A DNA stretch of 50,709 nucleotides from Deltaproteobacteria bacterium. GTDB taxonomy: Bacteria > Desulfobacterota > Syntrophia > Syntrophales > UBA2210. The notes beneath the pieces are model-generated. The model was given only the letters and a program-made list of their open reading frames with translations. It was not told the origin of the DNA and did no database searches. The position numbers and the translations under genes were made by a program. Of this stretch, positions 31,256-48,641 are shown in pieces. The number at the start of each line of letters is the position of its first letter. Within the stretch, counting starts at the first letter, position 1. The stretch spans positions 1-50,709 of the forward strand of contig JAFGGB010000189.1 of assembly GCA_016930775.1 (NCBI GenBank), given 5' to 3'.

Positions 31256-32167
31256 TCATTTAATAAGCTTCACGCTCTTCAGCCAGTCCATCGCTACATC
31301 ATGAACTTGCTTATGTTCCACATCAACGGCGGCGTTGAGCTGCTGCATCGTTTCTGTTGTTAAATTACCTGCCATCGGTTTTAAAATATCTCTGATTTCG
31401 GGATACTCATCAAGAACGACCTGACGAACGACCGGTACAGGATTATAAACGGGGAAGAAGTATTTGTCGTCCACCAGATTGACGAAGCCGAAGGCCGCGA
31501 TCCGCCCGTCGGTGGCAAAGCCCATGGCTGAATTAACCAGGCCGTCCTTCAACGCCTGATAGGTTAAACCTACGGACATTTTCTTGACCTGTTGAGAGGG
31601 CAACGTGAAATTATAAACTTTCATAACCTTTTTGAATCCATCGGGCCGTTCCCAGAATTCCGAGTCCAAGGCAAAGATAAGCTCGTTGGGATGTTTGTCG
31701 ACGTATCGGGCAAGATCCGATATGGTTGCAATCCCCAATGAATCAGATTGAGTCTTCTTCATCATCAGCGTGTAGGTATTATTAAATTTGATGGGATCAA
31801 GCCATACGAGTCCCTTTTGTTCGTCCGCTTTTTTTACCCAATTATATACTTTGTCGGGAACTGTCATGATTTCCATATCTTTTTGTTTGTAATACACAGT
31901 ATAGGCAGTCCCTGTATATTCGAAATAGAGGTCGAATTGTTTGTTCTCTAAGGATTTGCGGGCGATAACAGAACCGACTCCCGTTTTCAGGGTCACGTCA
32001 AATCCTTTATCTCTCAGCAGTATGGTTCCCATTTCTGCAAGCAAATACTGTTCGGTGAAGTTCTTTCCGCCCACGATAAGCTTTTTCTCTTTGGCAAAGG
32101 CAATGCCTGAAAAGAGAAACACAGCCGCAATAAGCGAACACAGCAACAAATTTGAAAATTTTTTCAT
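31256..32167 (-). CDS. Osmoprotectant ABC transporter binding protein
   Basis: OpuAC/ProX/OpuCC-type substrate-binding protein for betaine- or choline-like compounds, 303 aa. The signal peptide has a hydrophobic core at about 5-24, with probable cleavage after AFA. The mature start LIVGGKNFTEQYLLAEMG is the family signature, with EYTGTAY and FATDGRIAAFG later. AGAGGAGG lies upstream of ATG 32167. It is the last gene of a four-gene operon, 72 bp after the second permease. No lipobox, as expected for a diderm periplasmic receptor. Confidence 0.92.
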   Translation of the reverse strand: MKKFSNLLLCSLIAAVFLFSGIAFAKEKKLIVGGKNFTEQYLLAEMGTILLRDKGFDVTLKTGVGSVIARKSLENKQFDLYFEYTGTAYTVYYKQKDMEIMTVPDKVYNWVKKADEQKGLVWLDPIKFNNTYTLMMKKTQSDSLGIATISDLARYVDKHPNELIFALDSEFWERPDGFKKVMKVYNFTLPSQQVKKMSVGLTYQALKDGLVNSAMGFATDGRIAAFGFVNLVDDKYFFPVYNPVPVVRQVVLDEYPEIRDILKPMAGNLTTETMQQLNAAVDVEHKQVHDVAMDWLKSVKLIK

Positions 32168-32239
32168 GGTGATACCTCCTCTTGTTGGCTATCGGTGCAG
32201 TACGACGCACCTCGTAGGGTTAACGGTTTAGACCTTGCG

Positions 32240-32971
32240 TTATTTGGAAATGCGCAGTCCTTTTGAAATCAGAAGGAACCCCAGCAACTCGGATAGAAAA
32301 TCGGCGAAAAGGGCCATCAGTGTGATCGGAATGGCGCCGGCTAAAAGCTTTTCCGTTTGCATCAGGCTGATTCCTGTGAAAATCAAATCTCCCAACCCCC
32401 CGGCGCCGATAAGATAGGAAAGCGCTGCCGTGCCGATATTGATTATCAGCGCGATTCTGAAACCCGTGAGAATGACCTGCATGGCATTGGGGAGTTCAAC
32501 TTCAAACAGAATTTTAAGAGGAGTCATTCCCATCCCTTTGCCGGCATCTATTAGCGAAGGCGGCACTGCCATGATGCCCGCAAGGGTGTTTCTCGCAATG
32601 GGAAGGATTGAATAAATGGTAAGAGCAAATACGGCCGGCTTTGTGCCGATACCCAAAAAGCTCATGGCTAGTGCAAGAACGGCGAGCGATGGAATAGTTT
32701 GCCCCAGTCCGATAATGTACATGCAGATTCCTGCGAACTTGCGAAAACGCCGTCGAGTAAGAATAATGCCGGCTGCTAATCCGATTGCGGCAGCGAAAGC
32801 CATGCTGAGAGCAACGATGTGGATATGCTGCAGGATCAATTCGATGATGACAGGATATTCATAAGGATCGGAAAGATATTCTATAAGTCCTGTCCGTTCT
32901 GCCATCACGCCGGCGAAAAGAATTATCGCCATCAAGATAAGGCGGTATATCTTGGCAAAAAGCAGTTTCAT
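32240..32971 (-). CDS. Osmoprotectant ABC transporter permease (second)
   Basis: Inner-membrane permease of the OpuC/YehY type, 243 aa with about six helices and the cytoplasmic EAA-like loop MGMTPLKILFEVELPNAMQVILTG that contacts the ATPase. It overlaps the upstream permease gene by 4 bp (ATGA, 32968-32971), so translation is coupled. Two different permease genes indicate a heterodimeric channel. Confidence 0.92.
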   Translation of the reverse strand: MKLLFAKIYRLILMAIILFAGVMAERTGLIEYLSDPYEYPVIIELILQHIHIVALSMAFAAAIGLAAGIILTRRRFRKFAGICMYIIGLGQTIPSLAVLALAMSFLGIGTKPAVFALTIYSILPIARNTLAGIMAVPPSLIDAGKGMGMTPLKILFEVELPNAMQVILTGFRIALIINIGTAALSYLIGAGGLGDLIFTGISLMQTEKLLAGAIPITLMALFADFLSELLGFLLISKGLRISK

Positions 32972-33636
32972 CGCAGCGATTTCCTTTGAACCTTTATGCC
33001 TTTGGGGGTGACCGTCCTTTCCAGGAGGGCCATGAGTCCGTCAACGATGATCGCCAGGAGGGAGACAAGAATGGCCCCGCTCAAGATCATCTCGGGATAA
33101 ACGCGGTCTATCCCCTGTTGAATATATACCCCAAGTCCTCCCGATCCTATGTACGTGGCAATGGCAGCAATCCCGATATTCATAACGGCTGCGGTCCGAA
33201 GCCCGGCAATGATGACCGGCGTTGCTAATGGAATTTCTACCTCGCGCAGGAGCTCCCACTTGTTCATGCCCATTCCCTTGGCCGCATCCACTATGGCGTG
33301 TGGAACATTCTTGATGGCTGTGTAGGTGTTTCTGATGATGGGAAGCTGACTGTACAGAACCAGGGCTATGACGGCCGGGACCTTTCCAAGGCCAAGATTA
33401 ACAAGGGAAAGCACGGGCAGCATTATTCCAAAAAGTGCGATCGAAGGGATAGTCATAAGTATGTTCGCAAAATTAAGGATTCGGGCGGCGATCTGTTTAT
33501 GGCCCGTTATGAAAATTCCCAGGGGAACGCCGATAGCGGCGGCGATGATAAGCGCCAACCCCACGATCCATATATGGTCCCAGGAAAGAACTATCACCTC
33601 GGAATAATTATCGATGATAAACTGCAGTGTGCTCAC
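32968..33636 (-). CDS. Osmoprotectant ABC transporter permease (first)
   Basis: Inner-membrane permease of the OpuC type, 222 aa, with five to six helices and the EAA-like loop MGMNKWELLREVEIPLATPVI. It begins 5 bp after the ATPase stop and overlaps the second permease by 4 bp. The SGGLGVYIQQGI segment close to the C-terminus is typical of this subfamily. Confidence 0.92.
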   Translation of the reverse strand: MSTLQFIIDNYSEVIVLSWDHIWIVGLALIIAAAIGVPLGIFITGHKQIAARILNFANILMTIPSIALFGIMLPVLSLVNLGLGKVPAVIALVLYSQLPIIRNTYTAIKNVPHAIVDAAKGMGMNKWELLREVEIPLATPVIIAGLRTAAVMNIGIAAIATYIGSGGLGVYIQQGIDRVYPEMILSGAILVSLLAIIVDGLMALLERTVTPKGIKVQRKSLR

Positions 33637-33641
33637 AGTGT

Positions 33642-34784
33642 CTACACCTTGTTGTTATTTGATTCGGTATCGTCTGCATAACTTTCTTTGACGATTTTCT
33701 GTATGTCGTTATAAGTTACAGTTCCGGTGAAGTTGCCGTTATCGTCCAATACGCAAAAGGTTGCCTGATCGTGCATGAGCATGAAGGAAAGAACATCCCG
33801 TAAAGAAGTCCGTTCCTTGAGGAAGAGGGGATATTTTTCCACCAGGTCCCGAACGACGCCTTCTTCATATTTCAGGATCTTGGGTGTGACATAGCCGATG
33901 GGCTTGTCTCGATCGATTGCGATACCGTAGCGCAATCCCTTTTCATTGAGAAAATTCAAGGCATCTTGCGCCCGGTCCGCTGCACGAACGATATTTTGGG
34001 GTTTGCGGTTAATAACGTCCATGACCCGCAAGAGACCCAGGACTTTCAACGCTCGGTCGGCGCCGACGAAGTCCGCCACAAATTTGTTCTTAGGCTGTGT
34101 AAGGACGATCTCGGGCACATCGTACTGCACCAAACGACCCTTGTCGAAGAGGGCAATGCGGTCCCCCATCTTCATCGCTTCATGTATGTCATGTGAAACA
34201 AAGGCAATGGTTTTCTTCAGCTTTGTCTGAAGTTTGAGAAACTCATTTTGAATCTCTTCTCTGTTAATGGGATCAATCGCGCCAAAGGGCTCATCCATGA
34301 GCAGGATATCGGGATCAGCAGCCAGTCCTCGGGCAACGCCGATTCGCTGTTGTTGACCTCCGGAAAGTTCGACGGGATAACGGTCGCGATACATGTCCGG
34401 CTCCAGGCTTACCATTTGAAGCAACTCGTTGACGCGTTCATCAATGCGTTGCTGCGACCATCCCAACAGTCGAGGAACAACGGCGATGTTTTCGGCGATC
34501 GTCTTATTGGGAAAGAGTCCAATAGCCTGTATAACATAACCAAGCCGTTGCCTCAGAGCTACAGCGTCGGTATCCATTATATTCTGGCTATCTATATATA
34601 TGTTGCCCCGGGTTATGGTTTCAAGTCTATTGGTCAGGCGAAGCGTGGTGGTTTTGCCGCATCCAGACGGTCCGAGGAATACCACAATTTCACCCTTCGG
34701 GATGTTAAAACTTACGTTGTCGAGAGCAGTGACGGCCTCTCGTCCGGTTCCGAATATCTTTGTGACTGATTCATAGGTTATCAC
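33642..34784 (-). CDS. Osmoprotectant ABC ATPase with CBS domains
   Basis: ATPase of the OpuCA/ProV type, 380 aa. Walker A GPSGCGKTTT (about 37-46), signature LSGGQQQR, Walker B ILLMDEPFGAIDP and the H-loop SHDIHEA are all present. Two CBS repeats (about 255-375) form the C-terminus; in OpuA/OpuC relatives these sense ionic strength or bind c-di-AMP. GTG 34784 has GAGGAG six bases upstream; the in-frame TTG at 34790 would abut the site. It is the first gene of the operon. Confidence 0.93.
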   Translation of the reverse strand: MITYESVTKIFGTGREAVTALDNVSFNIPKGEIVVFLGPSGCGKTTTLRLTNRLETITRGNIYIDSQNIMDTDAVALRQRLGYVIQAIGLFPNKTIAENIAVVPRLLGWSQQRIDERVNELLQMVSLEPDMYRDRYPVELSGGQQQRIGVARGLAADPDILLMDEPFGAIDPINREEIQNEFLKLQTKLKKTIAFVSHDIHEAMKMGDRIALFDKGRLVQYDVPEIVLTQPKNKFVADFVGADRALKVLGLLRVMDVINRKPQNIVRAADRAQDALNFLNEKGLRYGIAIDRDKPIGYVTPKILKYEEGVVRDLVEKYPLFLKERTSLRDVLSFMLMHDQATFCVLDDNGNFTGTVTYNDIQKIVKESYADDTESNNNKV

Positions 34785-35775
34785 GAACAACTCCTCATAT
34801 CTTTGAATCTGGCCTATTGTTTCTTATCAGACGGATGGTTTTCTTGAGCGTCAGAAGCGCTATGCATCCTGCCTGAGTGCCAACATTAGAGGAGGATGAA
34901 TGTCCTATATTCTTCAAGCATGGCGGAATCCTCTCTGAATAGGCGCTATCGTTTGTATAAGGTGCAATAGCGAAACAATAACGACAAACATAGTCATCGC
35001 TATCGCTGCGGCTATGGCTTGTGCGCTGTCTCAATAAAACGCGAGATTACTTCAATTGTTTTTTCACGACCGAAACGATGCAATGAACGAAAGGTTTTGC
35101 AATTTGTTTGAATTCTCTTTGAAAAATAAACAAATCACATCTGATCAACTCTGGGTATGCACCGAAATGTTTGCGCCGCACGTTATCATTTGTTTCTTTT
35201 GCAATACAACCCTAAATTGCAACGCTCTCAACGATGTTTCGGCAATTCGCTTTGAAAGTCAAGCGAGTTAAACTGATCAACTTATGCATGTTTTAAAACA
35301 GCTGCTTTAACATTATTGCACTGTACATCATCAAAACGTCGGTTTGCTTTAAATCACATTCCCGATGATATGTCAAGCAATTTATTGATTTATATAACAA
35401 TTTAAGGAAGGTAGAGAAACTTAAGCATGCGGGGGTCAAAGAAATGTTCCAGACGGCTCAACATACAACATGTTCATACCCGATAAGTTAATAACGGATC
35501 ATCAAAGATGCATTGCATTGTTTCGTTTATTGATCGGCATTTGCCAGATGCTGCACATTTAAATAAGAGCTTTCTACTTTCAACGCATTCTGTTTCAAGC
35601 GCCAAACACTTACACCTTTATTCATAAATGACCATAGGAACCTTGACATACCTCCTTTTCAGAAATTTGCGGAGTTATCTGTCTTTGAGACTATTATAAG
35701 TGTTTGAAGACAGGCTCAATAATCACGATCAGCTTGGTATAAAAGACCATTCTTTCCGGTATTCGTCAGTACAAA
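34785..35775. other. AT-rich 1-kb intergenic stretch
   Basis: No convincing gene on either strand, and clearly AT-richer than its surroundings. It holds the upstream region of the osmolyte operon, three copies of a CGCTAT(C/T)G element (34943-35005), and an 8-bp inverted repeat ATTTGTTT/AAACAAAT (35102-35135). Short frames around 34795-35034 (minus) and 35056-35271 (plus) show no recognisable protein. It may contain an unannotated RNA or decayed DNA. Confidence 0.5.
34943..35005. repeat. Three CGCTAT(C/T)G elements upstream of osmolyte operon
   Basis: GCGCTATCG (34943-34951), an inverted CAATAGCGA (34965-34973) and TCGCTATCG (34997-35005) lie 160-220 bp before the ATPase start. They could be operator half-sites; the spacing (22 and 32 bp) fits two and three helical turns. 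Confidence 0.35.
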
Positions 35776-37080
35776 CTACAGGTGTTTTCTTAAGTAGCGG
35801 TAATCCGGCGTGAGAGTCCCCCGGTGAAGGATCATAGCGCCTTTTAACTCCGGAATCATGGTCAGACGGGCGAAGTCGTCTTTGTAATTTGCGGCGGCGA
35901 TTAACGGTATGTATTCCCTGAGGATAGAGCTGAAATAGCAGGACGATTCGTAAGGTATCTCCGTAGGAAGAATGTCTACGGCCATGACAAGCGGTCCCCA
36001 ACCTTTGAATCCATGAGAAATGACGCCGTTCCGGGGGTCATAGACGTACACCGGGTCATCCGGCGAGGTCGATTCGACAGTGCACTCAATCGACCCTCCT
36101 GGATCGCAGGTGATGTCGCCGATGACTTTAAGTTTCGGCGGCACGGTTCCATTCCATAAATTCCTGCAGTCCTCGATTGTCATCAATCGAGGATACCGGG
36201 CATCCCAGTATATTCCGTTGACCAGCACTGTAAGCTGCGGGAGATATCGATAGAACTGCGATCTGTATTTTTTTACGCCTTCCCTGTAGTAATGATTAAG
36301 ATCGAAGGATTGCGAGCCGTCAATTGATTGAACCATATGCTTTTCCCGGAAGACGATCTTGTAGAGGACATGGCGCGACGCCGGGTCATTTAGCATGATG
36401 TCTTCAGGGGCTTCCGGTTCTATGCTCCGGAAGGGCAAGATGTCAAAGATGTCCTGGGCGCCCTGGGAGACATTGCCGTATCCCGTGAAGCCGACAATAA
36501 GGGGATTAAGGATCTCCGGGATTCCTCTGGTTCGTATAACCTCGGCCACGCGGTCCAATTCTTCACGGGCTTCTTCGAGATTGCGATAGTTTTTGGCCTG
36601 GCGAAGAACGCTGAAGGGATTCTCGATATTTTCTTCCTCCAAACGTTGCCCCAGCGCCCAGAGAGTGTTGATCATGCCGGCCATTCCGGCATGTCGGCCA
36701 AAAAATATAAGGCGGCGATTGTTGCCGTCGACGATGCGTTCATAGTCCAGAAGTGTTGTTTCAAGCTCCATCATTCGTTCAAGCATCGGCATGTTGTAGG
36801 GTTGTCCTTTTATGACATGGGCGAAAAAAAGATAGATTTTCCGAAATTCAAACATGTCCTTAGGGATTTCCTTTATGCCGATGATGATGTCGCAGTCTTT
36901 CAGAGATGTCTGAACAGGGATGCCTGCGGATCGGAAGTCGTTATCGGAAAAAACTCGATGGGCGCTTGCCTGAACCACAATGGAAATTCCCTGCTCCCGC
37001 AGGGCCTGAATGTCCTTCGGTATAAGCGGCGATCGTCGTTCCCAGGGACTTTTGTCCTCCGAACGGATTCCTATTTTCAT
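35776..37080 (-). CDS. Lysine-ketoglutarate reductase (LOR) domain protein
   Basis: Counterpart of the N-terminal half of eukaryotic alpha-aminoadipic semialdehyde synthase, which joins lysine and 2-oxoglutarate to saccharopine or reverses this. At 434 aa it has the alanine-dehydrogenase-like N-terminus (EDKSPWERRSPLIPKDI), the FFGRHAGMAGMIN and NYRN segments, a Rossmann TGYGNVSQGAQ, and LVNGIYWDARYPRL plus DITCDPGGSIE near the end, all matching AASS in order. AGGA lies nine bases before ATG 37080. It is the last gene of the dpp operon, 19 bp after the PrpD-like gene. The saccharopine dehydrogenase half is a separate gene in the same operon. Confidence 0.88.
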   Translation of the reverse strand: MKIGIRSEDKSPWERRSPLIPKDIQALREQGISIVVQASAHRVFSDNDFRSAGIPVQTSLKDCDIIIGIKEIPKDMFEFRKIYLFFAHVIKGQPYNMPMLERMMELETTLLDYERIVDGNNRRLIFFGRHAGMAGMINTLWALGQRLEEENIENPFSVLRQAKNYRNLEEAREELDRVAEVIRTRGIPEILNPLIVGFTGYGNVSQGAQDIFDILPFRSIEPEAPEDIMLNDPASRHVLYKIVFREKHMVQSIDGSQSFDLNHYYREGVKKYRSQFYRYLPQLTVLVNGIYWDARYPRLMTIEDCRNLWNGTVPPKLKVIGDITCDPGGSIECTVESTSPDDPVYVYDPRNGVISHGFKGWGPLVMAVDILPTEIPYESSCYFSSILREYIPLIAAANYKDDFARLTMIPELKGAMILHRGTLTPDYRYLRKHL

Positions 37081-37099: not shown

Positions 37100-38467
37100 T
37101 TATTCTCTTTTCATTTTTGGGTCAAGAAATTTAATGCTTCCCAGCAAATTGACAAGCTTGGAAAAGCTTCCATTCATCGTCGAGGACAGGCATTTTAAAA
37201 GATCACCCTGTCGTTCCGGTGAAAGATATTTGTTTGAAAGTCCGAGCAGCTTTTCTTCTATCATTCGATAATCCATAGGATTGCCGGGGTCTCCCAGCGG
37301 ATCTTCAATGGTCGTTTCGTAGGTTTCTCCCCTTGCTGCCAGTCTTACGCGGGCCGGAACTTTTGCAGGGAACACGGCATCGAAGGCGGGATCCACGGCG
37401 AGTTTTATCTTTCGCGCCAGGGCTATGATATCCGGCCGGACCAGGAGTGAATTATCGAGCGGCAGGAGGGCGGGCTTTCCATCGACGGCTAGGACAGCGA
37501 GGCAAAAAGGTATGCTGTACTGGGCAGCCTCGATGGTAGAAGGATCGGGATAATTATTTAAAAGCAGAGCCCGTCCGAAGGTATCGACACGGATAGATCG
37601 AATGTCCTTCGCGGCAACGTTGCAATCATTCATGAGGCGCTCCAGACCGTCGAGAGCGCTGTGTATCCATCGGCAGCAGGCATAGGGTTTGAAGTACACT
37701 CCGTCAATGGCGAATCCTGCGCCCAAGTCAGAGAGTATCTTTTCAGCCTGGTAGTAGTCTTTATGATCAAGGATGTCCGTAGGTCCGGTAAACGATTGTT
37801 CGGCCAGCTCCAGGGCCACGAGTCCTGTGACTGCGGACCAGGGTATTCCTTCCTTGACGTGGTTTCCCATGATCGCGCTGTAACCCGCGGCCGAAAGTCC
37901 GGGTGACTGAACCCCCGCGATAGCCAGAGCCTGAGCCAATTTTCCCGGCTTGAAACCCTTGATCTTGCCGGCCGCCGCGGCTGCGCCGTAGGAGCACCAT
38001 CGTCCAGTGGCAAGCGTGTCAAGACGCGAGAAATCCCTTGCTGCCCCAATGCGGACGGCGACTTCATATCCGGCAACAACAGCAGCGATAAGGGTCTCAT
38101 CGTCGCAACGCCGTTCCTCATATGCGGCAAAAGCTGCGGGGATAATCGCCGCGCCGGGGTGACCGCCGGCGGCACGATGCCCGTCATCCAGGTCCAGGGC
38201 GCTGGCAGCGGCACTGTTGGCGAAAACTGCGCCTGCGACAGTGCGGCTCACCCCGGCGAACCAGAGGCCGGCAGGTCCTTCGCTGAAAATGGCTTGCGAA
38301 ATTTTTCGGATATGCTTTGCAGAATCACTGGAATACCCCCCAATAGAAGCCGCGATGAGGTCGGCGATGCATTTCTTCACTGATTCCCTGGTGGCCGATG
38401 GAATCTTTTCCGGCTTGAGGTTGCAGACGAATTCCGCGAGAACCTCCGTCGTTGAGATTTTTGCCAT
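37100..38467 (-). CDS. MmgE/PrpD family protein
   Basis: Member of the MmgE/PrpD family, 455 aa, with the family segments ANSAAASALDLDDGHRAAGGHPGAAIIPAA (about 75-105, first part DLDDGH) and a C-terminal alpha-beta domain. Known members include 2-methylcitrate dehydratase, cis-aconitate decarboxylase and the iminodisuccinate epimerase of Agrobacterium. ATG 38467 starts one base after the stop of the HTH-DctP regulator gene, with GGA eight bases upstream; an earlier in-frame start exists at 38512. There are no other methylcitrate genes nearby, so an epimerase, lyase or dehydratase in amine/opine breakdown is more plausible than propionate metabolism (inference). Confidence 0.88.
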   Translation of the reverse strand: MAKISTTEVLAEFVCNLKPEKIPSATRESVKKCIADLIAASIGGYSSDSAKHIRKISQAIFSEGPAGLWFAGVSRTVAGAVFANSAAASALDLDDGHRAAGGHPGAAIIPAAFAAYEERRCDDETLIAAVVAGYEVAVRIGAARDFSRLDTLATGRWCSYGAAAAAGKIKGFKPGKLAQALAIAGVQSPGLSAAGYSAIMGNHVKEGIPWSAVTGLVALELAEQSFTGPTDILDHKDYYQAEKILSDLGAGFAIDGVYFKPYACCRWIHSALDGLERLMNDCNVAAKDIRSIRVDTFGRALLLNNYPDPSTIEAAQYSIPFCLAVLAVDGKPALLPLDNSLLVRPDIIALARKIKLAVDPAFDAVFPAKVPARVRLAARGETYETTIEDPLGDPGNPMDYRMIEEKLLGLSNKYLSPERQGDLLKCLSSTMNGSFSKLVNLLGSIKFLDPKMKRE

Positions 38468-38468
38468 A

Positions 38469-39647
38469 TTATTTGTCCGGCGGTTTACAGGCGTTAATGG
38501 CGTCGGAGACATCTTTCTGCACTATTCCTTTGCCGATTAGAATATCACGGACCCGTTCGGCTTCCTTTTTCCATAGCGAGGTGTCTACTTTTATGTAGGC
38601 AGCATTAAATCGTTTTATGTTGAGAAGTTCGTTGCTTTCTTCGGCTTCCCGGATACAAGCGGAGAATGAATCTCCCGCGGAGTCGCATACCTGGATCAAG
38701 GTTTCCTGAAGCGACGGAGGAAGCATTCGGTATTTAAGATCATTCATGGCAACTCCCAGAACCGGAGGGATATCTCCCAGGAGTGTTACAAAGGGCGTGT
38801 ACCTGCAGAACGAGAGAGGATATACATGCGCCTTATGGGTCGGCAGGATGTCGATTTCTTTCTGGCGGAGGCTGGTTCGCACGTCCGACCATGGTACAAC
38901 AACGGGAATCGCTCCCAGTTCTTCCCAGAATCGGGCAAGAACAGAAGACTCATAGATCCGCACGCGCAATCCTTTTACATCGGCCGGTGCAATGATGGGC
39001 CGTGAAGAAACGATAACCCACTCGAGGCCTCGGATCCAGTTCCATCGATTGTTTATGAATCGAATGCCCTGTGCCGGGAGCGGCGCCTTCATCTTCTCGA
39101 TGAAATAATCGCTTTCCAGGAACGCCCTCTGGTGGGATTCACTCGAAAATATGTAGGGTAGCGAAAGATAAGAATAGTCTGTGACAAACTTTCCATAATG
39201 ATAGAGTTGCTCAATAAAAATATCGATGATCCCCTGTCGAAGCTGATCGACCTGCTCGCCGGGGCTTCCCAGTTGCGATTCCTTGAGGGGTATGAGGGAA
39301 ATCGAATGGTTTGTCCTCTCATAGACATCTTGGGCGAACCGCAGGATTGCCTCATTTTCCGGACCTTCCACACTTGTCAGCGTACCGAGCACCCTCGGAA
39401 TTTCCTCATCGCTCAGGAAAAGATAGCTGAGAGGGCGATTCAGGGCTGCACAAATATTTCCCAGGATTTTTATGGATAGAGTGGCCCGTCCGTTTTCGAT
39501 CTTAGATAATTGGCCCTGGGATATTCCGGCCAAGCGGGCCAGTTGCAATGAAGTGATGCCCGTCGATGCCCGCAGTTCGCGCACTTTCGCGCCGATTCGC
39601 GCTTGAATCCGAGTTTCCAGGTCCTGTGTATTAGCATGAGGCGTCAT
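38469..39647 (-). CDS. XRE-type HTH fused to a DctP TRAP receptor domain
   Basis: Predicted one-component regulator of about 392 aa. Residues 14-78 form a Cro/CI-type HTH (LQLARLAGISQGQLSKIENG). From about 97 to the end is a TRAP solute-receptor (DctP) domain: QLGSPGEQVDQLRQGIIDI (126-144), SLPYIFSS, and DVKGLRVRIYESSV with the carboxylate-binding arginine expected at R230, then GAIPVVVPWSDVRTSLRQKEID. No signal peptide is present, so the normally periplasmic domain would sense a ligand in the cytoplasm. It lies inside the dpp-SDH-LOR operon, one base before the PrpD-like gene. The start is ATG 39647 or GTG 39656. The link to the palindromic operators at 46.7 kb is inference. Confidence 0.88.
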   Translation of the reverse strand: MTPHANTQDLETRIQARIGAKVRELRASTGITSLQLARLAGISQGQLSKIENGRATLSIKILGNICAALNRPLSYLFLSDEEIPRVLGTLTSVEGPENEAILRFAQDVYERTNHSISLIPLKESQLGSPGEQVDQLRQGIIDIFIEQLYHYGKFVTDYSYLSLPYIFSSESHQRAFLESDYFIEKMKAPLPAQGIRFINNRWNWIRGLEWVIVSSRPIIAPADVKGLRVRIYESSVLARFWEELGAIPVVVPWSDVRTSLRQKEIDILPTHKAHVYPLSFCRYTPFVTLLGDIPPVLGVAMNDLKYRMLPPSLQETLIQVCDSAGDSFSACIREAEESNELLNIKRFNAAYIKVDTSLWKKEAERVRDILIGKGIVQKDVSDAINACKPPDK

Positions 39648-39774
39648 TATGGTCACTGAACCAGCCGTCTATGTAAAAGTAACTTTAGCATCTTCCAGAC
39701 AGTACAGGCATCAAACGCTGCCGTTTTCATCATTGTAGGACAGCAAGGGATTATCCTTTGCCATAACTGCATGC

Positions 39775-40983
39775 CTATGATCCTGCAGTAGGCTCGGTTT
39801 CATTATCATTGATCTCGCCGCATTGTCGTCTCACCTGCATGCCTCTCCGCGAGAGTTCCTCTATGAGGATCTGTGGCGGCACGTGAAGGGCCGGCGATAG
39901 AACGCCGGGCTGTTGTATTTTCCCCGAGAGGATCATCTGAGCGCCGATACTTGCTGTAAATCCAACCGTTCTGTTCATTGCGAAGAGCCCGGTTGAAAGA
40001 TCACGGTAATCGGTGAGGCTGTATGTGACATTGACTTTCTTGCCCGATTTGATCCCCCAGGCTTTGACAAGAAGGATTACGATGTCGCGTTCATTTTCTC
40101 TGAATTGGAGTCGTGGAGTCAGATGTTCCACTAAAAATTGCCGGGGGCTGATATCGGCCCCTGCAATCTTTTCCGGTGTGTCATCGAGAAAGCCAAGTTC
40201 CGCAATGATGCGCCAGAACTGGCTGTGGCCGGGCCACCGCAAGGCAAATCTACCCATGTTCTGAATGTTTTCCGATAATTTGAAAACAGAGATGTAATGG
40301 ACTGCATCGCCATTCGGATAGGCTTCTAAAATGCCGAGTTCGGGCACATAGATGTCATGAATATATTCTTTTCTGAAGATCTTTTCTCCCGGTACGGAGA
40401 CGACTTCGCCGTTTTTCAGGAATTGCGCCGGGCGTTTGTAGGCTTTGAGAACGCCGTTGAAGGTCCAGGTAATCTTGTAATTCAAAGGATTGTCTGCGGC
40501 GCAGACCGGTTCGGGAAGACCGGCGCCGTAAGAGTACAGACCCTTTACCTCGTCGAGTTCATCGATGGCAAGTCGTCCAAGGATTAGATCGATCCCCGGA
40601 TCCATGCCCATTTCGGGAAGAATCGATATTCCCCGTGACCGCGCCTCCCCGTCGAGTTCGAGAATCCTTCCGGTGTAACTGCTGCTCACGAATGGAATCC
40701 CCGCTTTTAGAGCCGCCTGGGCCACGATGAAACCGTAATCGGGAGGTATCATGCAGATGACGAGTTGCGCGCCCGTTTCTCTTATAGTCGCATCGAGGCG
40801 ATCGTTCACGTCGGCGTTGACATAATAACCCCTAGTTTTTTTAAGACCTTTCTGACTGATATATTTCTCCACCATCGCCAAGTCTTGATCGGCGACAATA
40901 ATATCCGTAATCAAAGATGATTCTTCCAGATCATGAACCACTGCCTTGCCCTGCAATCCCATGCCCAGTATGAGTACTTTCAT
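39775..40983 (-). CDS. Saccharopine dehydrogenase (glutamate-forming type)
   Basis: Counterpart of the C-terminal half of eukaryotic AASS, which oxidises saccharopine to glutamate and alpha-aminoadipate semialdehyde with NAD(P)+. At 402 aa it has a Rossmann GMGLQG (7-12), ISILPEMGMDPGIDLIL, and SYGAGLPEPVCAADNPLNYK, corresponding to the human GGLPAPEHSNNPLRYK region. ATG 40983 has GAGGGAC about eight bases upstream. It follows dppC by 53 bp and precedes the HTH-DctP gene by 127 bp. Specificity for saccharopine itself rather than a similar secondary amine is not proven. Confidence 0.88.
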   Translation of the reverse strand: MKVLILGMGLQGKAVVHDLEESSLITDIIVADQDLAMVEKYISQKGLKKTRGYYVNADVNDRLDATIRETGAQLVICMIPPDYGFIVAQAALKAGIPFVSSSYTGRILELDGEARSRGISILPEMGMDPGIDLILGRLAIDELDEVKGLYSYGAGLPEPVCAADNPLNYKITWTFNGVLKAYKRPAQFLKNGEVVSVPGEKIFRKEYIHDIYVPELGILEAYPNGDAVHYISVFKLSENIQNMGRFALRWPGHSQFWRIIAELGFLDDTPEKIAGADISPRQFLVEHLTPRLQFRENERDIVILLVKAWGIKSGKKVNVTYSLTDYRDLSTGLFAMNRTVGFTASIGAQMILSGKIQQPGVLSPALHVPPQILIEELSRRGMQVRRQCGEINDNETEPTAGS

Positions 40984-41036: not shown

Positions 41037-41945
41037 TTATATATTTCTCAGGCGGGGATCAAGAGCATCCCTCAAGCCGTCGCCGAGAAGGTTAATTGAC
41101 AGGATTGTAATCATGATTGCGATGCCGGGGAAGGTTACGAGCCACCAGGCATCGGTAATGTAAATCCGACCATCGGCGAGCATCCGTCCCCAGGTGGCCA
41201 TAGGAGGAGGCACTCCCATGCCAAGGAAGGATAGTCCGCTTTCCCAGATGATGATGTTCGCCACCCTTAAAGTGCCCAGGATCAGAAGGGGGGATATGAC
41301 ATTCGGAAGAATATGCCTCGTTATAATAGTGCGATGAGGAGTTCCTATCGCTCGTGAAGCTTCAACAAATTCCTTTTCCTTCAAGGATAAGACGCTTCCT
41401 CGAATCGTACGCGCATAAGTCACCCAATCGGAGAGACCCAGAACGAGGATGAGATTGAACAGAGACGTGCCGAGCACGGCAATGATCGATATTGTCAGCA
41501 GCATGAAGGGGTAGGCCATGAATATGTCGGCGATTCGCATAATGATGTTATCGATCCGCCCGCCGTAGTATCCTGATATCAAGCCTAGAATGATGCCGGC
41601 TAATGCTGCTAGGGCCACTGCGGCGAAACCGACGAGAAGAGATATCCTGCTTCCGTGCAGCAGTCTTGCCAAAATGTCGCGACCCAGGTTGTCCGTCCCG
41701 AGAAGATGCGCGACGGTTCCTCCTTCCTGCCAGGCCGGAGGAGTAAACCGGGCCATCAGGTCCTGAGACAGGGGGTTAACATTGTAAACGGCAGGGAAGG
41801 AGAGACTCGTCAAAACGATGATGATCAACATGGCTCCTCCGACCAGGGCGCTGGGGCGACGGGCCACTTCTCTCAGCGTTTCATTCAGGAGCCGGAGGCG
41901 GGGAGCTATCTCATCAATGATTATCGTCATCGCACCTGATCTCAT
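41037..41945 (-). CDS. dppC: Dipeptide/oligopeptide ABC permease DppC-like
   Basis: Inner-membrane permease of the peptide/nickel family, 302 aa. It has the OppC N-terminal domain with NPLSQDLMARFTPPAWQEGG and LGTDNLGRDILARLLHGSRISL, then the permease core with the EAA loop EFVEASRAIGTPHRTIITRHILPN. The start lies 5 bp after the dppB stop. It pairs with DppB. Substrate may be peptides or opine-like amines. Confidence 0.93.
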   Translation of the reverse strand: MRSGAMTIIIDEIAPRLRLLNETLREVARRPSALVGGAMLIIIVLTSLSFPAVYNVNPLSQDLMARFTPPAWQEGGTVAHLLGTDNLGRDILARLLHGSRISLLVGFAAVALAALAGIILGLISGYYGGRIDNIIMRIADIFMAYPFMLLTISIIAVLGTSLFNLILVLGLSDWVTYARTIRGSVLSLKEKEFVEASRAIGTPHRTIITRHILPNVISPLLILGTLRVANIIIWESGLSFLGMGVPPPMATWGRMLADGRIYITDAWWLVTFPGIAIMITILSINLLGDGLRDALDPRLRNI

Positions 41946-41950
41946 GTCTG

Positions 41951-42877
41951 TTATTGTTCCTCAAAGTATCTGATCTGCGGATCCAGATAGAGATACAGCA
42001 GGTCTACAAAAAAATTGACGGCGACGAAGATGACGGCCAGAACGAGGACAATCGCCTGGACCAGAGGGTAATCCCGGTTGAAAATGGCCTGTACCACCAA
42101 TCGGCCTACGCCGGGCCAGGCAAACACGGTTTCTATGATGACCGTCCCGCCGAGGAGAAAGCCGAACTGCATTCCTGCGACGGTTACGATGGGGATAAGT
42201 GCGTTTTTCAAGGCATGCTTCGATATGACGATCTGCTCTTTCAGTCCCTTCGCCCGCGCCGTCCTGATATAATCAAGACTGAGAATCTCCAGCAAAACCG
42301 ATCGGGTGAGGCGGGCGAACATGGCCATCAGGCTGAGACCTAACGCAAGAGACGGCATGATGAGATGAGCGAAAGTCCCGCGACCCGATGTAGGGAGCCA
42401 TCCAAGCTTGACGGAAAACAAGAGAATGAGCATGATGCCGAGCCAGAAATGAGGCATGGAAAGCCCGAAGAGAGCGGCGAACATGCTGCCCATATCCAGC
42501 AGAGATCCCCGCTTGACCGCCGATATGACGCCGATGGGAATCGCAAAGACTAAGGCGATTATCATTGATGTCAGGGCAAGTTCGAGGCTGGCGGGCAGTC
42601 GCTCGACGATCAATTTCATGACCGGAATCTTATAGTATAAAGAGTTGCCGAAATCCCCCTGAATGGCGTGGGCGGCAAACCGGATATATTGCTTGTACAG
42701 GGGATCGTTGAAACCCAATTGTTGCCGCAATTCCTCTATTTCCTGGATCGATGCATCGCCGGGAAGCATGAGCATGACCGGATCTCCCGAGAGGTGGATG
42801 AAAATGAAGCTGATGACGGAGATGCCGATCAACACGTAAACGGTGTGCCAGAGACGTTTCAACAGATAACGAAGCAT
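41951..42877 (-). CDS. dppB: Dipeptide/oligopeptide ABC permease DppB-like
   Basis: Inner-membrane permease, 308 aa from ATG 42877 (typical MLRYLLKRL start, GAAGGGA just upstream); the frame also allows ATG 42889. Helix 1 is followed by the HLSGDPVMLMLPGDAS and QLGFNDPLYKQY segments characteristic of DppB, with the EAA loop DYIRTARAKGLKEQIVISKHALKNA near the C-terminus. A large inverted repeat separates it from dppA. Confidence 0.93.
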   Translation of the reverse strand: MLRYLLKRLWHTVYVLIGISVISFIFIHLSGDPVMLMLPGDASIQEIEELRQQLGFNDPLYKQYIRFAAHAIQGDFGNSLYYKIPVMKLIVERLPASLELALTSMIIALVFAIPIGVISAVKRGSLLDMGSMFAALFGLSMPHFWLGIMLILLFSVKLGWLPTSGRGTFAHLIMPSLALGLSLMAMFARLTRSVLLEILSLDYIRTARAKGLKEQIVISKHALKNALIPIVTVAGMQFGFLLGGTVIIETVFAWPGVGRLVVQAIFNRDYPLVQAIVLVLAVIFVAVNFFVDLLYLYLDPQIRYFEEQ

Positions 42878-42907
42878 AGTCCCTTCCATCGATCGATTGA
42901 TTCAATG

Positions 42908-43000: not shown

Positions 43001-44500
43001 CTACTTTTTAGGCGACGCGTAGCGCATGTCGAGGAACCCGTCCCGTTTCCCCTGATAACTCACGCCATTTGCAACGCCGAAGACTTCGGGAATGACATAG
43101 AGGTACGCCCAGGGGCAGTCATCGTAGAGGATTTTGTCGATTTCATTGTAAACGAGGGCCCGTTTCCCCCGATCCATTGTTGCGGCGCCTTTGTCAAGCA
43201 GTTCGTCGATTTTCGTATTCTTGTAATAATAATCCCTGCTCTTGGAATGGAAGAGGGAGTAGATGTACCGGTGAGGTTCGGGAGCGTCATCCCACCAGTA
43301 AATAAACAATTGGTGCTTTTTCCCCTTGTACCGCTCCCACATTACGGCTCGTTCAAAAGGTTCCAGCGTCACTTCTATTCCGCCTTTTGCAAGATCCGAA
43401 GCGATGGCCTCCGACTGCTCCTGAATTTGCGACATGTACGTTCCATAGGCGAGGCGGACCTTAATCCCGTTGGGATGCCCGGCGGCCTTGAGAAGCTCCC
43501 GTGATTTCTTGGGATCAAAGGGGTAAGGTTTGAGAGCCGGGTTCGCACCGAAGGTCCGGGGGCTGGTGGGACCGTTGCAGATTATTGCCTTGCCTCCGAA
43601 AAGCGCCTTGTTGATCAGTTCCCGGTTGATTGAATAGTTGACTGCCTGCCGTACGCGAACGTCATCGAAGGGGGCTTCATAGGTATTGATGCCGAGGTAG
43701 GGCATGACGCCCATTTGCGGTGTGAGATAGGCCTTGCGGGAATCTTCGATCTTTTTCCGTTGGTGTACGGGGATGCCGCTGATCACGTCGGATTCTCCCG
43801 TCAACAAGGCGGCGATTCTCGATGATTCTTCCGGAATGGCCTTGAAGACAAGGCGTTTATACGCCGGTTTGGGACCGTAATACTTGTCATAGCGTTCCAT
43901 GATGACTTCTTCGCCGCGAACCCATTTAATCAGCCTGTAGGGACCTGATCCGATTGGCGTCGCGTTGTATTCCGCATCGCCAACTTTCTTAATGTATCCG
44001 GGCGGCACGATGGGAAGATAATAGGCAAGCATGTACAGTCCAGGTGCGAAGGGAGCGTCCGTCGAAATTGTAACGGTATAGGGATCGATCACCTTCACTT
44101 CCTTGAAACCAGAGAGTTTCCCTTTGTGGGGACACTGGATGTCGGGATTAAAAACCCGGTCAAAAGAGTATTTAACGGCGTCTGCATTGATGGGTTCACC
44201 GTTATGAAAGGTCGCTCCCTTTCGGATTTTGATTTTCCATGTCAGGTCATCGACCTGTTCCCACGATTCGGCAATTGCCGGAGTAACACTGGCATCCTCC
44301 TGGGGGTGGAAGAGCGTGTCGTGGATGTTGTAAGCGACATTCATTGTCGTCTGAATCGAGCTCCGCATAAGGTCGAGACCAACGGGCTCCGCTTCTTGTA
44401 CGACTACCAGGGTCCCGGCATCTCTGGCCGCGACGGGTCCTGGAATCGCGATGGCCAACGCCACTGCTGCAAAGATGCATACGAACGATAGCTTTTTCAT
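43001..44500 (-). CDS. dppA: Peptide-type ABC substrate-binding protein
   Basis: Periplasmic receptor of the family-5 extracellular solute-binding proteins, 499 aa. The signal peptide (hydrophobic core about 5-23) is cleaved near VAARDAG. The family signature ATFHNGEPINADAVKYSFDRV lies near residue 95, and GSGPYRLIKW in the middle. A GGGAGG site precedes ATG 44500. In this cluster it is the best candidate to define the imported compound; related receptors bind peptides, opines (agrocinopine and nopaline-type systems use several families) or nickel chelates. Confidence 0.92.
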   Translation of the reverse strand: MKKLSFVCIFAAVALAIAIPGPVAARDAGTLVVVQEAEPVGLDLMRSSIQTTMNVAYNIHDTLFHPQEDASVTPAIAESWEQVDDLTWKIKIRKGATFHNGEPINADAVKYSFDRVFNPDIQCPHKGKLSGFKEVKVIDPYTVTISTDAPFAPGLYMLAYYLPIVPPGYIKKVGDAEYNATPIGSGPYRLIKWVRGEEVIMERYDKYYGPKPAYKRLVFKAIPEESSRIAALLTGESDVISGIPVHQRKKIEDSRKAYLTPQMGVMPYLGINTYEAPFDDVRVRQAVNYSINRELINKALFGGKAIICNGPTSPRTFGANPALKPYPFDPKKSRELLKAAGHPNGIKVRLAYGTYMSQIQEQSEAIASDLAKGGIEVTLEPFERAVMWERYKGKKHQLFIYWWDDAPEPHRYIYSLFHSKSRDYYYKNTKIDELLDKGAATMDRGKRALVYNEIDKILYDDCPWAYLYVIPEVFGVANGVSYQGKRDGFLDMRYASPKK

Positions 44501-44623: not shown

Positions 44624-45652
44624 CTACCCGCACTGCCGCTCATCGCCCGTGGCCGGTGGGATTGATGGGAGCCTGCGGGTTTCCCCCTCTGCATAATAGT
44701 GACAGGAAACGGCATGACCCATTCCTCTGTCGTGCGTGACTGGTTTTTTTGTGTCGCATATATCCAAACGATAGGGACAACGGGGATGAAAACGACATCC
44801 CGACGGTGGATTGAGGGGTGAGGGAACGTCGCCCTGAAGGATAATCCGTTGCTTGTGACGACGGGGATCGGGAATCGGCACGGCTGAGAGGAGCGCAATC
44901 GTATAGGGATGGAGTGGATTCTTATACAGTTCGTCAGTTTTTGCCAATTCCACAATTTCCCCGAGATACATGACAGCGACGCGGTGGCTGATGTACCGAA
45001 TAACGCCGAGATCATGCGAGATGATGACGTATGAAAAGCCGAACTGCCTTTGGAGGCGCACCATGAGATTGAGTATCTGGGCTTGGACGGATACGTCCAA
45101 GGCCGACACCGGTTCATCTCCGATTATCAGACTGGGCCCAAGGATGAGAGCCCTGGCTATCATAATCCGCTGGCGCTGACCGCCGGAAAACTCATGAGGG
45201 AATCGCTTCATGTGTTCAGGAAGAAGCCCCACGATCTTGAGCGTTTCCTGAACCTTGCGCCGCCTCTCGCACGTTGCCCCCATCCGATGGGTGATCAGTG
45301 GCTCTTCGACTATTCGTTCAACGGTAAGCCTCGGATTGAGGGAACCGAAGGGATCTTGAAAGATCATCTGCATATGCCGCCGCAGATGGTTTTTTTCGCG
45401 GTTCCCCAGTTCAAAAACATTGCGTCCCTGAAAGAAGACCCTTCCGCCCGTTGGTTCTATGAGACTGAGGATTGTCCTGCCGGCCGTGGATTTGCCGCAA
45501 CCCGATTCACCAACGAGACCAAGGGTTTCCGATCTGTTGAGAGAAAAGGTTATGTCATCGACGGCATGAATATATTCGCGGGACCGCTTGAAAAACCCGC
45601 GGTGAACAGGGAAATATTTTACGAGATTTTTTACTTCAAGCAGCGGTGTCAT
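44624..45652 (-). CDS. dppF: Peptide-type ABC transporter ATPase DppF-like
   Basis: Cytoplasmic ATPase, 342 aa from ATG 45652 (GGGGGAAA directly upstream). Walker A is GESGCGKST, the signature is FSGGQRQR, and Walker B reads [12 protein letters not shown]; the oligo_HPY C-terminal region [16 protein letters not shown] with the cysteines [14 protein letters not shown] follows. Its start overlaps the end of dppD by 17 bp. The frame extends upstream to 45700 without support. Confidence 0.93.
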
Positions 45653-46622
45653 TTTCCCCCGCATGCCAGCATGCCGCGTAATGGCTCGGCAATACTTCAT
45701 TCAATTCCGGTTCTGCTTCTCTGCATCGGGCATCGGCCAAAGCGCACCGGGGATGAAAAGGACATCCCTTGGGCAGCGACATCAGGCTTGGCACAACTCC
45801 GGCGATCTCATAAAGTTCTCCCTGTTCATGGTCGGTTCCGGCGCTCGGTATGGCATGCATCAAACCTCGCGTGTAAGGGTGGAGAGGGCGCTCGAAGAGA
45901 TCGAGCGTGACCGCCGATTCCATGATCTTGCCCGTGTACATAACGATAATGCGTTTCGCCATTTCAGCTATGAGACCGAGATCGTGTGAAATAAGCATGA
46001 TCGCCGTGTTCAACTCCCGTTGGAGCTGTTCCATGAGATCCATTATTTGCGCCTGAATTGTGACATCCAGGGCTGTTGTGGGCTCGTCGGCTATGAGCAA
46101 TTTTGGCCGGCAGGCCAGGGCCATTGCAATCATGACCCGTTGGCGCAGACCGCCGGAAAGTTGATAAGGATATTCCCGTATGCGTTTTGCCGGCGCCGGA
46201 ATTCCAACCTTTTCCATCATTTCAACCGCTTTCGTCAGGGCCTTGCTGTACGAAATTCCCCAATGGGTTCTATAGACTTCAGCCAGTTGATTTCCCACGG
46301 AAAACACGGGATTTAACGCTGTCATGGGTTCCTGGAAAATCATGCTGATCTGATTGCCTCGTATTTTTCTGATATCGTCCTGGGAAAGGCTAAGCAGGTT
46401 AACGCCGGAAAAAAAGATGGAACCGCCGGCGAACATGGCAGGAGGCACAGGAAGAAGCCGCAGAATAGACAATGCAAGGACGCTTTTCCCGCAGCCTGAC
46501 TCGCCGACAATTCCGAGGACATCGCTCTCCTGCATTTCAAGTGAAACACTGTCAACGGCCCGGGCGACGCCTTGGGGCGTTTGGAAGTAGGTCTTCAGAT
46601 TGTCGATGCGAATCAGAGACAT
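45636..46622 (-). CDS. dppD: Peptide-type ABC transporter ATPase DppD-like
   Basis: First gene of the operon, 328 aa from ATG 46622; the frame is open to a TTG at 46667, inside the palindromic operator, which is a less likely start. Walker [10 protein letters not shown], signature LSGGLRQR, Walker [13 protein letters not shown] and the C-terminal oligo_HPY region [13 protein letters not shown] with CPFHPRC are visible. It forms a heterodimer with DppF. The predicted leader from the minus-strand promoter is about 117 nt. Confidence 0.92.
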
Positions 46623-46656
46623 GCGCTTACGGATATCCGTTACGGCAGTTTGAAAT

Positions 46657-46671
46657 ATTCTTGACAAGAAT
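46657..46671. promoter_or_regulatory. Palindromic operator copy 1 (dpp side)
   Basis: ATTCTTG-A-CAAGAAT is a perfect 7+1+7 palindrome. It contains the TTGACA -35 box of the plus-strand promoter. A second copy lies 107 bp away (46764-46778). Confidence 0.7.
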
Positions 46672-46689
46672 GTTCCAAGCTCCTATTAT
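46661..46689 (+). promoter_or_regulatory. Sigma-70-type promoter for the AOR unit
   Basis: TTGACA (46661-46666), a 17-bp spacer and TATTAT (46684-46689, 5 of 6). The expected start near 46696 gives a leader of about 116 nt before the AOR ATG. This promoter points towards the opposing one. Confidence 0.65.
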
Positions 46690-46745
46690 CGGGTACATTA
46701 ATAAACAGAATATCCCTTACAACATTTGATATACAGATGTTTTTA

Positions 46746-46774
46746 TTTATAAACTGCATAGATATTCCTGTCAA
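46746..46774 (-). promoter_or_regulatory. Sigma-70-type promoter for the dpp operon
   Basis: On the minus strand TTGACA (46774-46769), a 17-bp spacer and TATAAA (46751-46746, 5 of 6). The expected start near 46739 lies beyond the opposing start near 46696, so the two transcripts overlap by about 43 nt at their 5' ends. Confidence 0.65.
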
Positions 46775-46778
46775 GAAT
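46764..46778. promoter_or_regulatory. Palindromic operator copy 2 (AOR side)
   Basis: ATTCCTG-T-CAAGAAT, identical to copy 1 except at two positions, and extending to ATAT at both outer ends (46762-46780). It contains the TTGACA box of the minus-strand promoter. Confidence 0.7.
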
Positions 46779-46811
46779 ATTTGGTAAGGGCGATTAATAA
46801 GGAGGCCTGTT

Positions 46812-48641
46812 ATGTATGGTTGGTGCGGCAAGATCCTTCGTGTCGATTTGACAAGCGGAGCAATCACCGAAGAGGCGCTCGATCCGAAGACAGCCAGGGA
46901 CTATATCGGCGGTCGGGGTCTGGGAATTCGCTATATGCTCAACGAACTGAATCCGCTTTGCGATCCTTTTGGAGCGGAAAATCTCTTCATTATGGCGGCG
47001 GGACCCCTGACGGGCACCAAGGCGCCGACAGGCGCCCGGTATATGGTGATGACAAAATCGCCGTTGACGGGTGCGATTACCTGCTCCAACGCCTCGGGAT
47101 ATTTTCCGGCCGAGTTGAAGAAGACGGGATACGATATGATCATCTTCAGCGGTCAGGCGCCTGAGCCCGTATATCTCTGGCTGCACTCTGGCGGGGCCGA
47201 ACTCCGTCCGGCCGGTCATATCTGGGGCAAGACAAGCCATGAAGTTGACGCTTTGGTTCACGGCGAAACAGAGGCAAAAGCCAGGATCGCCTGCATCGGT
47301 CCCGCTGCTACGAAGGGTGTTCTCTTCGCTTCCATAATGAATGACCTGAACAGAACAGCCGGACGTTCCGGCGTGGGCGCCGTCATGGGATCGAAAAAGC
47401 TTGTGGCCGTGGCCGTTCGGGGTACGAGCGATGTTCCAATAAAGGATCCCGACCTGTTCCGCGCCGTTGTTGACAAATATTTAAAACAGTACCGTGATTC
47501 TCTTGGTGGAGAAAGACATTCGCTCAATCAGTATGGAACAGCTGCGACGATTACAAAAACCCAGAAATTCGGAGTGCTCCCGACTCGTAATTTTCAACAG
47601 GGAACCTTTGAACATTGGGAGTCCCTGAGCGGCGAAACGCTGACCGAACAGTTCCTCATAAAGACGAAGACCTGTCATAGCTGCCCTATCGGCTGCGGTC
47701 GCGTAACGAAGGTTGTGAAACCGGGATTTGAAGGCGAGGGAGAAGGGCCTGAGTATGAAACGATCTTCGCCCTCGGAAGCAACTGCGGAATTGGCGATCT
47801 TGCCGCCGTCGCTAAGGCCAACTACGTTTGCAACGAAATGGGGCTCGATACGATCAGCATGGGCGCCACGATTTCCTGCGCAATGGAACTATTTGAACGG
47901 GGTTGGATTAGCGAAACCGATATTGGCCGGCCGCTCCGTTTCGGCGACGCCGAGGCTCTCGTTGAGATGTGTCGCCTCACGGGCCTCCGCGAAGGATTCG
48001 GGAACTATCTCGCCGAGGGGAGCCTGAGGCTTGCCACCCGTTACGGTCATCCCGAGCTTGCCATGGTGTCGAAAGGTCAGGAATTCGCCGGTTACGATCC
48101 CAGAGGAGAACAAGGCATGGGCCTGGCCTACGCGACATCGCCGATAGGCGCTTCCCATATGCGCGGCGATCCGGCCTATATTGAACTCCTCGGGGTGCCG
48201 AAGACGATCGATCCGATCGCTTCCAAAGGGAAATCTCTTATCGTTAAGGACTGGCAGGAAGTTTTCGCCGTTATCGATTCGGCCGGCCTGTGCGTTTTTT
48301 TCTCGGTCCGCAACTATATGACTCCTACGGAGGATATCCGCCCGGTGGGCATTGTTGAACTCCTCAATGCGGCTACCGGGGCCGATTACAGCCTGGAAGA
48401 ACTGGTCAAAGCCGGAGAGCGGATTATCAACGCCGAAAGATTGTTTCTCGTAAAGGCTGGTTTTAGCAGAAAGGATGACACTCTCCCGCCCCGGATGCTG
48501 CAAGAACCCCTCCCGGACGGGCATGCCAAGGGGCACGTAGTTCGCCTGGAGGAAATGCTTACGGAATACTATCGGCTTAGAGGATGGAACCAGAACGGTG
48601 TTCCCACAGAAGAAAAACTGAGAGAATTGGACCTTAAGTGA
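46812..48641 (+). CDS. aor: Aldehyde:ferredoxin oxidoreductase (AOR family)
   Basis: Tungsten-pterin enzyme oxidising an aldehyde to its acid with ferredoxin, or the reverse; 609 aa, cytoplasmic and oxygen-sensitive. The N-terminal MYGWCGKILRVDLTSG and GGRGLG segments are typical. The 4Fe-4S ligands are C288-x2-C291-x3-C295 (CHSCPIGC) and C494 (AGLC). AAGGAGG precedes ATG 46812. It is the first gene of a plus-strand unit facing the dpp operon across shared operators. It could oxidise aminoadipate semialdehyde or another aldehyde from that operon, or work with the Liv-type importer downstream; both are inference. Related benzoyl- or glyceraldehyde-type enzymes look similar. Confidence 0.93.
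   Translation: MYGWCGKILRVDLTSGAITEEALDPKTARDYIGGRGLGIRYMLNELNPLCDPFGAENLFIMAAGPLTGTKAPTGARYMVMTKSPLTGAITCSNASGYFPAELKKTGYDMIIFSGQAPEPVYLWLHSGGAELRPAGHIWGKTSHEVDALVHGETEAKARIACIGPAATKGVLFASIMNDLNRTAGRSGVGAVMGSKKLVAVAVRGTSDVPIKDPDLFRAVVDKYLKQYRDSLGGERHSLNQYGTAATITKTQKFGVLPTRNFQQGTFEHWESLSGETLTEQFLIKTKTCHSCPIGCGRVTKVVKPGFEGEGEGPEYETIFALGSNCGIGDLAAVAKANYVCNEMGLDTISMGATISCAMELFERGWISETDIGRPLRFGDAEALVEMCRLTGLREGFGNYLAEGSLRLATRYGHPELAMVSKGQEFAGYDPRGEQGMGLAYATSPIGASHMRGDPAYIELLGVPKTIDPIASKGKSLIVKDWQEVFAVIDSAGLCVFFSVRNYMTPTEDIRPVGIVELLNAATGADYSLEELVKAGERIINAERLFLVKAGFSRKDDTLPPRMLQEPLPDGHAKGHVVRLEEMLTEYYRLRGWNQNGVPTEEKLRELDLK

Follow-up and report, generated by a model that had tools for sequence, protein, structure and literature searches.

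The window—the whole stretch of DNA analysed here, 50,709 nucleotides from a bacterium of the Syntrophales (Desulfobacterota)—carries a minus-strand operon that encodes an ABC importer, several enzymes and a protein joining a helix-turn-helix (HTH) domain to a TRAP receptor (DctP) domain. Together with the oxidoreductase gene on the opposite strand, the genes are the following:

35776–37080, minus strand: lysine-ketoglutarate reductase (LKR) half-like enzyme (human AASS 8dda, 3.3e-74)
37100–38467, minus strand: MmgE/PrpD-family enzyme, the next gene downstream of the regulator (PF03972 4e-48; 2hp0 1.1e-24, 7bra 8e-26)
38469–39647, minus strand: HTH-DctP regulator, 392 aa, single frame (open frame and domain search)
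39775–40983, minus strand: saccharopine dehydrogenase-like (SDH-like) enzyme (1e5l saccharopine reductase 1.3e-40; Sacchrp_dh_C 3.9e-56)
41037–41945, minus strand: ABC permease of the operon's importer (sequence and gene order; same cluster order in related operons)
41951–42889, minus strand: ABC permease of the operon's importer (same grounds)
43001–44500, minus strand: ABC receptor, SBP family 5 (PF00496 2.9e-90; AgaA 6hlx among the PDB matches)
44624–45652, minus strand: ABC ATPase (ABC_tran and oligo_HPY)
45636–46622, minus strand: ABC ATPase, the operon's first gene, probable ATG at 46622 (sequence and gene order in related operons)
46812–48641, plus strand: aldehyde:ferredoxin oxidoreductase (PF01314 1.1e-145)

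The importer is an oligopeptide/nickel-type ABC system. No TRAP permease and no DctQ or DctM partner genes were found in the operon, whose transporter genes are of ABC type only, as the original prediction had stated. The MmgE/PrpD protein is related to IDS epimerase and IRG1 according to structure-database matches. AASS is the lysine-degrading enzyme of animals, and relatives of both its halves (LKR and SDH) are encoded here by separate genes at 35776–37080 and 39775–40983, within one bacterial operon that also holds an importer. Downstream of the operon, at 31256–34790, lies a separate glycine-betaine-type ABC system with an OpuAC receptor, a permease and an ATPase.

The HTH-DctP frame is uninterrupted from the ATG at 39647 to the stop codon ending at 38469, with an in-frame GTG at 39656 as a possible alternative start. 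It contains the following elements:

39420–39584, minus strand: XRE/Cro-type HTH, residues 22–76 (Pfam HTH_3, E 5.5e-12)
38604–39380, minus strand: DctP domain (TRAP receptor, SBP family 7), residues 90–348 (PF03480 4.6e-39; fold match Z 33)
38958–38960, minus strand: codon of R230, equivalent to SiaP R147, the TRAP-receptor carboxylate arginine (profile alignment to SiaP)

Both domains score above their Pfam cutoffs (46 versus 23 bits for HTH_3, 134.9 versus 23.4 bits for PF03480), and the cutoff of the NCBIfam model TRAP_S1 is likewise exceeded (93.6 versus 50 bits). Hence, the domain search bears out the joining of an XRE/Cro HTH and a complete DctP domain in one frame that had been read from the letters, and the sequence motifs named with it are present: QLG (125–127), GIID (139–142), GLRVRI with R230 and GAIPVVVPW (245–253). 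A signal peptide is absent, and the HTH takes up the N-terminus in its place, as had also been proposed. The 19-residue hydropathy mean peaks at 1.24, and the protein thus has no transmembrane helix or hydrophobic segment anywhere. No match at 0.001 was obtained for the LacI HTH, the type I receptor fold (Peripla_BP), the SgrR N-terminal domain or SBP family 5 (Pfam; for SgrR also NCBIfam). The AlphaFold model (12 family members) has a mean pLDDT of 87, with low confidence in the linker at residues 81–89; its DctP part superimposes on SiaP and other TRAP receptors with Z 31–33 and rmsd 2.2–2.9 over ~300 residues.

In TRAP receptors, SiaP R147 is the arginine that binds the ligand carboxylate. 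Its equivalent R230, within the GLRVRI motif, is invariant in all fusions and plain receptors compared, and would contact the ligand in the DctP domain. R206 is invariant in the fusions as well; alignments put either R206 or E209 opposite SiaP R127, the second pocket arginine. An equivalence of E146 to SiaP E67 was dropped, as E146 faces A66 in the alignment. Near the recognition helix of the HTH, S43, Q46, S48 and K49 are invariant in 13 aligned homologues.

Both domains are kept in 14 homologues, 30–51% identical where aligned, from Desulfobacterota, Tistlia, Mesorhizobium and Bradyrhizobium. A tblastn search against plasmids gave a Mesorhizobium protein of the same architecture (31% identity over 96%), and an alignment-based scan of genome contigs gave 11 full-length fusions, from Desulfobacteraceae and other MAGs, Tistlia consotensis, Mesorhizobium and Bradyrhizobium. 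The alignment-based scan was needed, single-sequence scans of genome contigs and viral contigs having returned no fusions. Whole-genome searches added a second Bradyrhizobium copy and a fusion in G191, a genome from the same phylum assembled as one 4.2-Mb contig. No further fusion of this kind was found in the window protein's own genome, where the remaining DctP proteins that were checked (L002, L003, L004, L005) begin with signal-peptide-like segments. Two trivial explanations fall away: an assembly frameshift or chimera is ruled out by retention of the fusion in 15 genomes or records, and a transporter receptor with a mis-called start by conservation of the HTH at the N-terminus of all members. 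Thus, both outcomes that the original prediction had named as fatal—an assembly error joining two genes, or homologues lacking one domain—were tested, and both domains stand in a single frame in many genomes, including the 4.2-Mb contig.

HTH-DctP fusions are rare and patchy. They occur in at least one of 155 genomes of the class and at least three of 395 of the phylum; in Tistlia's class (385 genomes) and Bradyrhizobium's family (249 genomes) the fusion is present in the centre genome, hence at least one each—all of these being lower bounds, since scoring was restricted to the top few candidates of each genome. In a tree with plain receptors, the 15 XRE fusions form one clade (support 96/99), and placement of the Tistlia copy among those of Desulfobacterota suggests horizontal transfer. 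RefSeq names the Mesorhizobium protein (L009 11986–13158, WP_044552287.1) a TRAP transporter substrate-binding protein/receptor; the name conceals its DNA-binding domain, and annotation of this sort hides regulators of this type.

A second kind of fusion carries a GntR-type winged HTH. One example (L040 1183–2427, G156:C296; GntR 9e-19, DctP 5.3e-44) adjoins a gene of the isocitrate/isopropylmalate dehydrogenase family. A relative 50% identical to it (L079 8334–9509, G196:C19) clusters with a TRAP receptor gene and with genes that look like DctQ and DctM. Between its DctP domain and the receptor of this cluster the identity is 48% (E 3e-100), versus 25% between that domain and the window protein. 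The tree groups the GntR–DctP pair with that cluster receptor (97/93), apart from the XRE clade. By this placement GntR–DctP is an independent fusion, and the DctP domain was therefore recruited at least twice.

The 5′ ends of the operons and regulator genes share a palindrome, AATWTTCYTGWCARGAAWATT, a consensus over 19 sites. Two sites lie in the window, within the region 46650–46785 that had been proposed for DNA binding:

46764–46778, minus strand: predicted operator 1, ATTCTTGACAGGAAT, at the ABC operon promoter (-35 TTGACA 46774–46769, 17-nt spacer, TATAAA 46751–46746)
46657–46671, no strand assigned: predicted operator 2, the perfect palindrome ATTCTTGACAAGAAT (-35 TTGACA 46661–46666, 17-nt spacer, TATTAT 46684–46689)

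The promoter elements at operator 1 were read by eye; at operator 2, the plus-strand promoter toward the oxidoreductase matches the consensus at 11/12 positions. The two predicted operators are 107 bp apart, and each covers the -35 box of one of two facing, overlapping promoter-like sequences. Allowing up to two mismatches, the window gives six strand hits versus 0.33 expected, a number reached in none of 100 shuffles; four of the hits come from operators 1 and 2, and two from a 2-mismatch site at 22343.

Beyond the window, the palindrome stands at operon or regulator 5′ ends in L011, L013/L072, L017, L009, L019, L021 and L046, and with one mismatch in L014, L020 and L045. In rhizobial loci a copy precedes the regulator gene, and the three Mesorhizobium loci have a second one just after it. 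Wherever a 5′ end is readable, L016 (G160) set aside, the palindrome precedes the operon or flanks the regulator gene. For a held-out test, 23 genomes were searched with the pattern WTTYYTGWCARRAAW, which gave matches on contigs new to the analysis: ahead of the first ABC gene of the operon in G156 (the genome's only match) and in G159 (one of eight), and ahead of an SDH-like gene in G162 (one of two). Of the 42 exact matches in the 13 regulator-bearing genomes, 12 fall at 5′ ends of this kind versus ~0.005 expected, a figure that is partly circular because the consensus derives from some of these sites; the held-out matches are not circular. Further matches in the window's own genome (G000: C122, C158, C194), in G155:C1 and in G160:C89 are inside genes or near unrelated genes and were treated as chance or unexplained. 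The genome of locus L013 encodes an additional XRE-type regulator (L072 1049–1654, G157:C169), divergent from the ABC operon and close to the palindrome. Overall, AATWTTCYTGWCARGAAWATT is the probable operator of HTH-DctP, and the oxidoreductase gene is possibly co-regulated from operator 2.

The fusions are accompanied by ABC importers, MmgE/PrpD and, in many cases, an SDH-like enzyme. The recurrent order in Desulfobacterota is two ABC ATPases, SBP5 receptor, two permeases, SDH-like enzyme, HTH-DctP and MmgE/PrpD, which an LKR-like gene sometimes joins (loci compared: window, L011 and L012). The Tistlia locus is an unbroken run of SDH-like gene, PotD-type ABC system, HTH-DctP and MmgE/PrpD. 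Genes divergent from HTH-DctP encode, in Mesorhizobium, another ABC importer together with MmgE/PrpD, an oxidoreductase, an amidohydrolase and an M24 protein and, in Bradyrhizobium (L046), an ABC importer, an M24 protein and an FAD amino-acid-oxidase-like protein. In locus L013 a DctM gene follows ~5 kb downstream, where it adjoins the gene of an exported receptor of its own. Judged by gene content, the loci share a theme, the uptake and degradation of N-substituted amino acids or opine-like carboxylates. At L016 (5795–12763), the HTH-DctP operon has as neighbours an MTTB-family methyltransferase, a DAO-type oxidase and a further two SDH-like genes, a combination that points to amino acids with N-methyl or N-alkyl groups.

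The substrate of IDS epimerase is a secondary-amine dicarboxylate, chemically akin to saccharopine. A saccharopine-type ligand of the regulator is plausible, since the window operon encodes relatives of both AASS halves; the aldehyde oxidoreductase (46812) could then oxidise the semialdehyde from a saccharopine-dehydrogenase reaction. The enzymes next to the regulator vary by lineage, so that a single common ligand is not assured.

Recruitment of a TRAP receptor fold as a cytoplasmic regulator, as originally proposed, is supported by the family-wide fusion, the invariant carboxylate arginine, the operon context and the conserved palindrome, and the independent GntR–DctP fusion demonstrates that recruitment of this sort does occur. 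We consider it likely that HTH-DctP is a one-component cytoplasmic regulator, namely a repressor, which acts at AATWTTCYTGWCARGAAWATT and is released by an amino-dicarboxylate or opine-type ligand; DNA binding, repression over activation, induction and ligand identity are what we infer within this scheme. The XRE HTH would bind the palindrome, presumably as a dimer, and thereby block the -35 boxes of the two facing promoters, one serving the operon of ABC importer, SDH-like enzyme, regulator, MmgE/PrpD and LKR-like enzyme, the other the aldehyde oxidoreductase gene. The position of the palindromes over both -35 boxes makes repression of both most likely. The DctP domain—a TRAP receptor minus its export signal—would sense either the carboxylate taken up or an intermediate formed early from it, with an N-substituted amino-dicarboxylate of opine or saccharopine type, held through R230, as the most likely ligand; clam-shell closure of the domain on this ligand would release the operator.

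The -35 overlap suggests repression and is compatible with activation too. That the same architecture and operator serve a ligand-dependent activator is unlikely, yet it is the best of the other readings: the effector domain of SgrR is of solute-binding type, and this regulator activates sgrS (PMC4021124); the HTH-DctP gene, moreover, often lies within its own operon, which fits either sign. Against activation, a complete consensus -35 (TTGACA) lies within the palindrome and is followed after 17 nt by a plausible -10, an arrangement suited to occluding a strong promoter. We regard it as improbable that the DctP domain is a degenerate dimerisation scaffold without sensing and the HTH a repressor that is constitutive or controlled in another way; SiaP's second arginine is indeed not clearly conserved, but R230 and many further DctP-domain residues are invariant across two phyla, and the DctP domain of GntR–DctP remains 48% identical to its cluster's receptor. 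Very improbable is an assignment of the palindrome to another regulator with HTH-DctP acting elsewhere: the divergent XRE regulator at the L013 site speaks for it, but HTH-DctP is the only DNA-binding protein seen common to all these loci, and in rhizobia the palindrome is found beside the HTH-DctP gene as well.

Receptor folds are already known as effector domains of regulators: LacI uses a sugar-receptor fold and SgrR an ABC-receptor one, and the LysR-type regulators are a further example. In the LacI/GalR family (e.g., RbsR with RbsB), a DNA-binding domain is joined to a solute-receptor fold for cytoplasmic sensing of a transported compound. HTH-DctP shares this coupling, but pairs an XRE HTH with a TRAP (SBP family 7) receptor where LacI has its own HTH and the type I sugar-receptor fold. 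SgrR consists of an N-terminal DNA-binding domain and a C-terminal ABC-type solute-binding-protein domain, an order also found in HTH-DctP; its effector domain is of SBP family 5 and its HTH of another type, whereas the window protein has DctP and an XRE HTH. With the TRAP receptors SiaP and DctP the whole fold and the carboxylate arginine are common, but these are exported by a signal peptide and work with DctQM partners, while HTH-DctP is cytoplasmic and carries a DNA-binding domain. Among precedents worked out by experiment, BzdR of the BzdR/BoxR type comes closest: this catabolic repressor combines an XRE HTH with a recruited effector-binding domain, has palindromic operators on its promoter and is released by an intermediate of the pathway (PMC3602430, PMC6678401). 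The likeness extends to the HTH sequence, as residues 5–81 of the window protein match PRK08154 (NCBIfam, BoxR/BzdR-type anaerobic benzoate catabolism regulator) at 7.3e-12, below the family cutoff. However, the effector domain there is shikimate-kinase-like and the operator TGCA-based; HTH-DctP lacks a shikimate-kinase-like C-terminal domain, DctP standing in this position, and its predicted operator is the palindrome described above.

In the literature searched, of which subscription journals formed only a small part, no characterised HTH-DctP or other DctP-based regulator was found. TRAP receptors are one of the largest receptor classes. On balance we lean toward DctP being a general effector module of cytoplasmic one-component regulators, which would have arisen at least twice (XRE and GntR), would read amino-dicarboxylates and related acids by clam-shell closure and would thus be the TRAP counterpart of the LacI family. 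The predicted operator, the regulon and the pocket residue make the HTH-DctP family immediately testable, and TRAP receptors with known ligands could serve as biosensor modules. The GntR–DctP cluster, finally, offers a regulator and its transporter paralogue side by side and, hence, a view of how a receptor becomes a switch.
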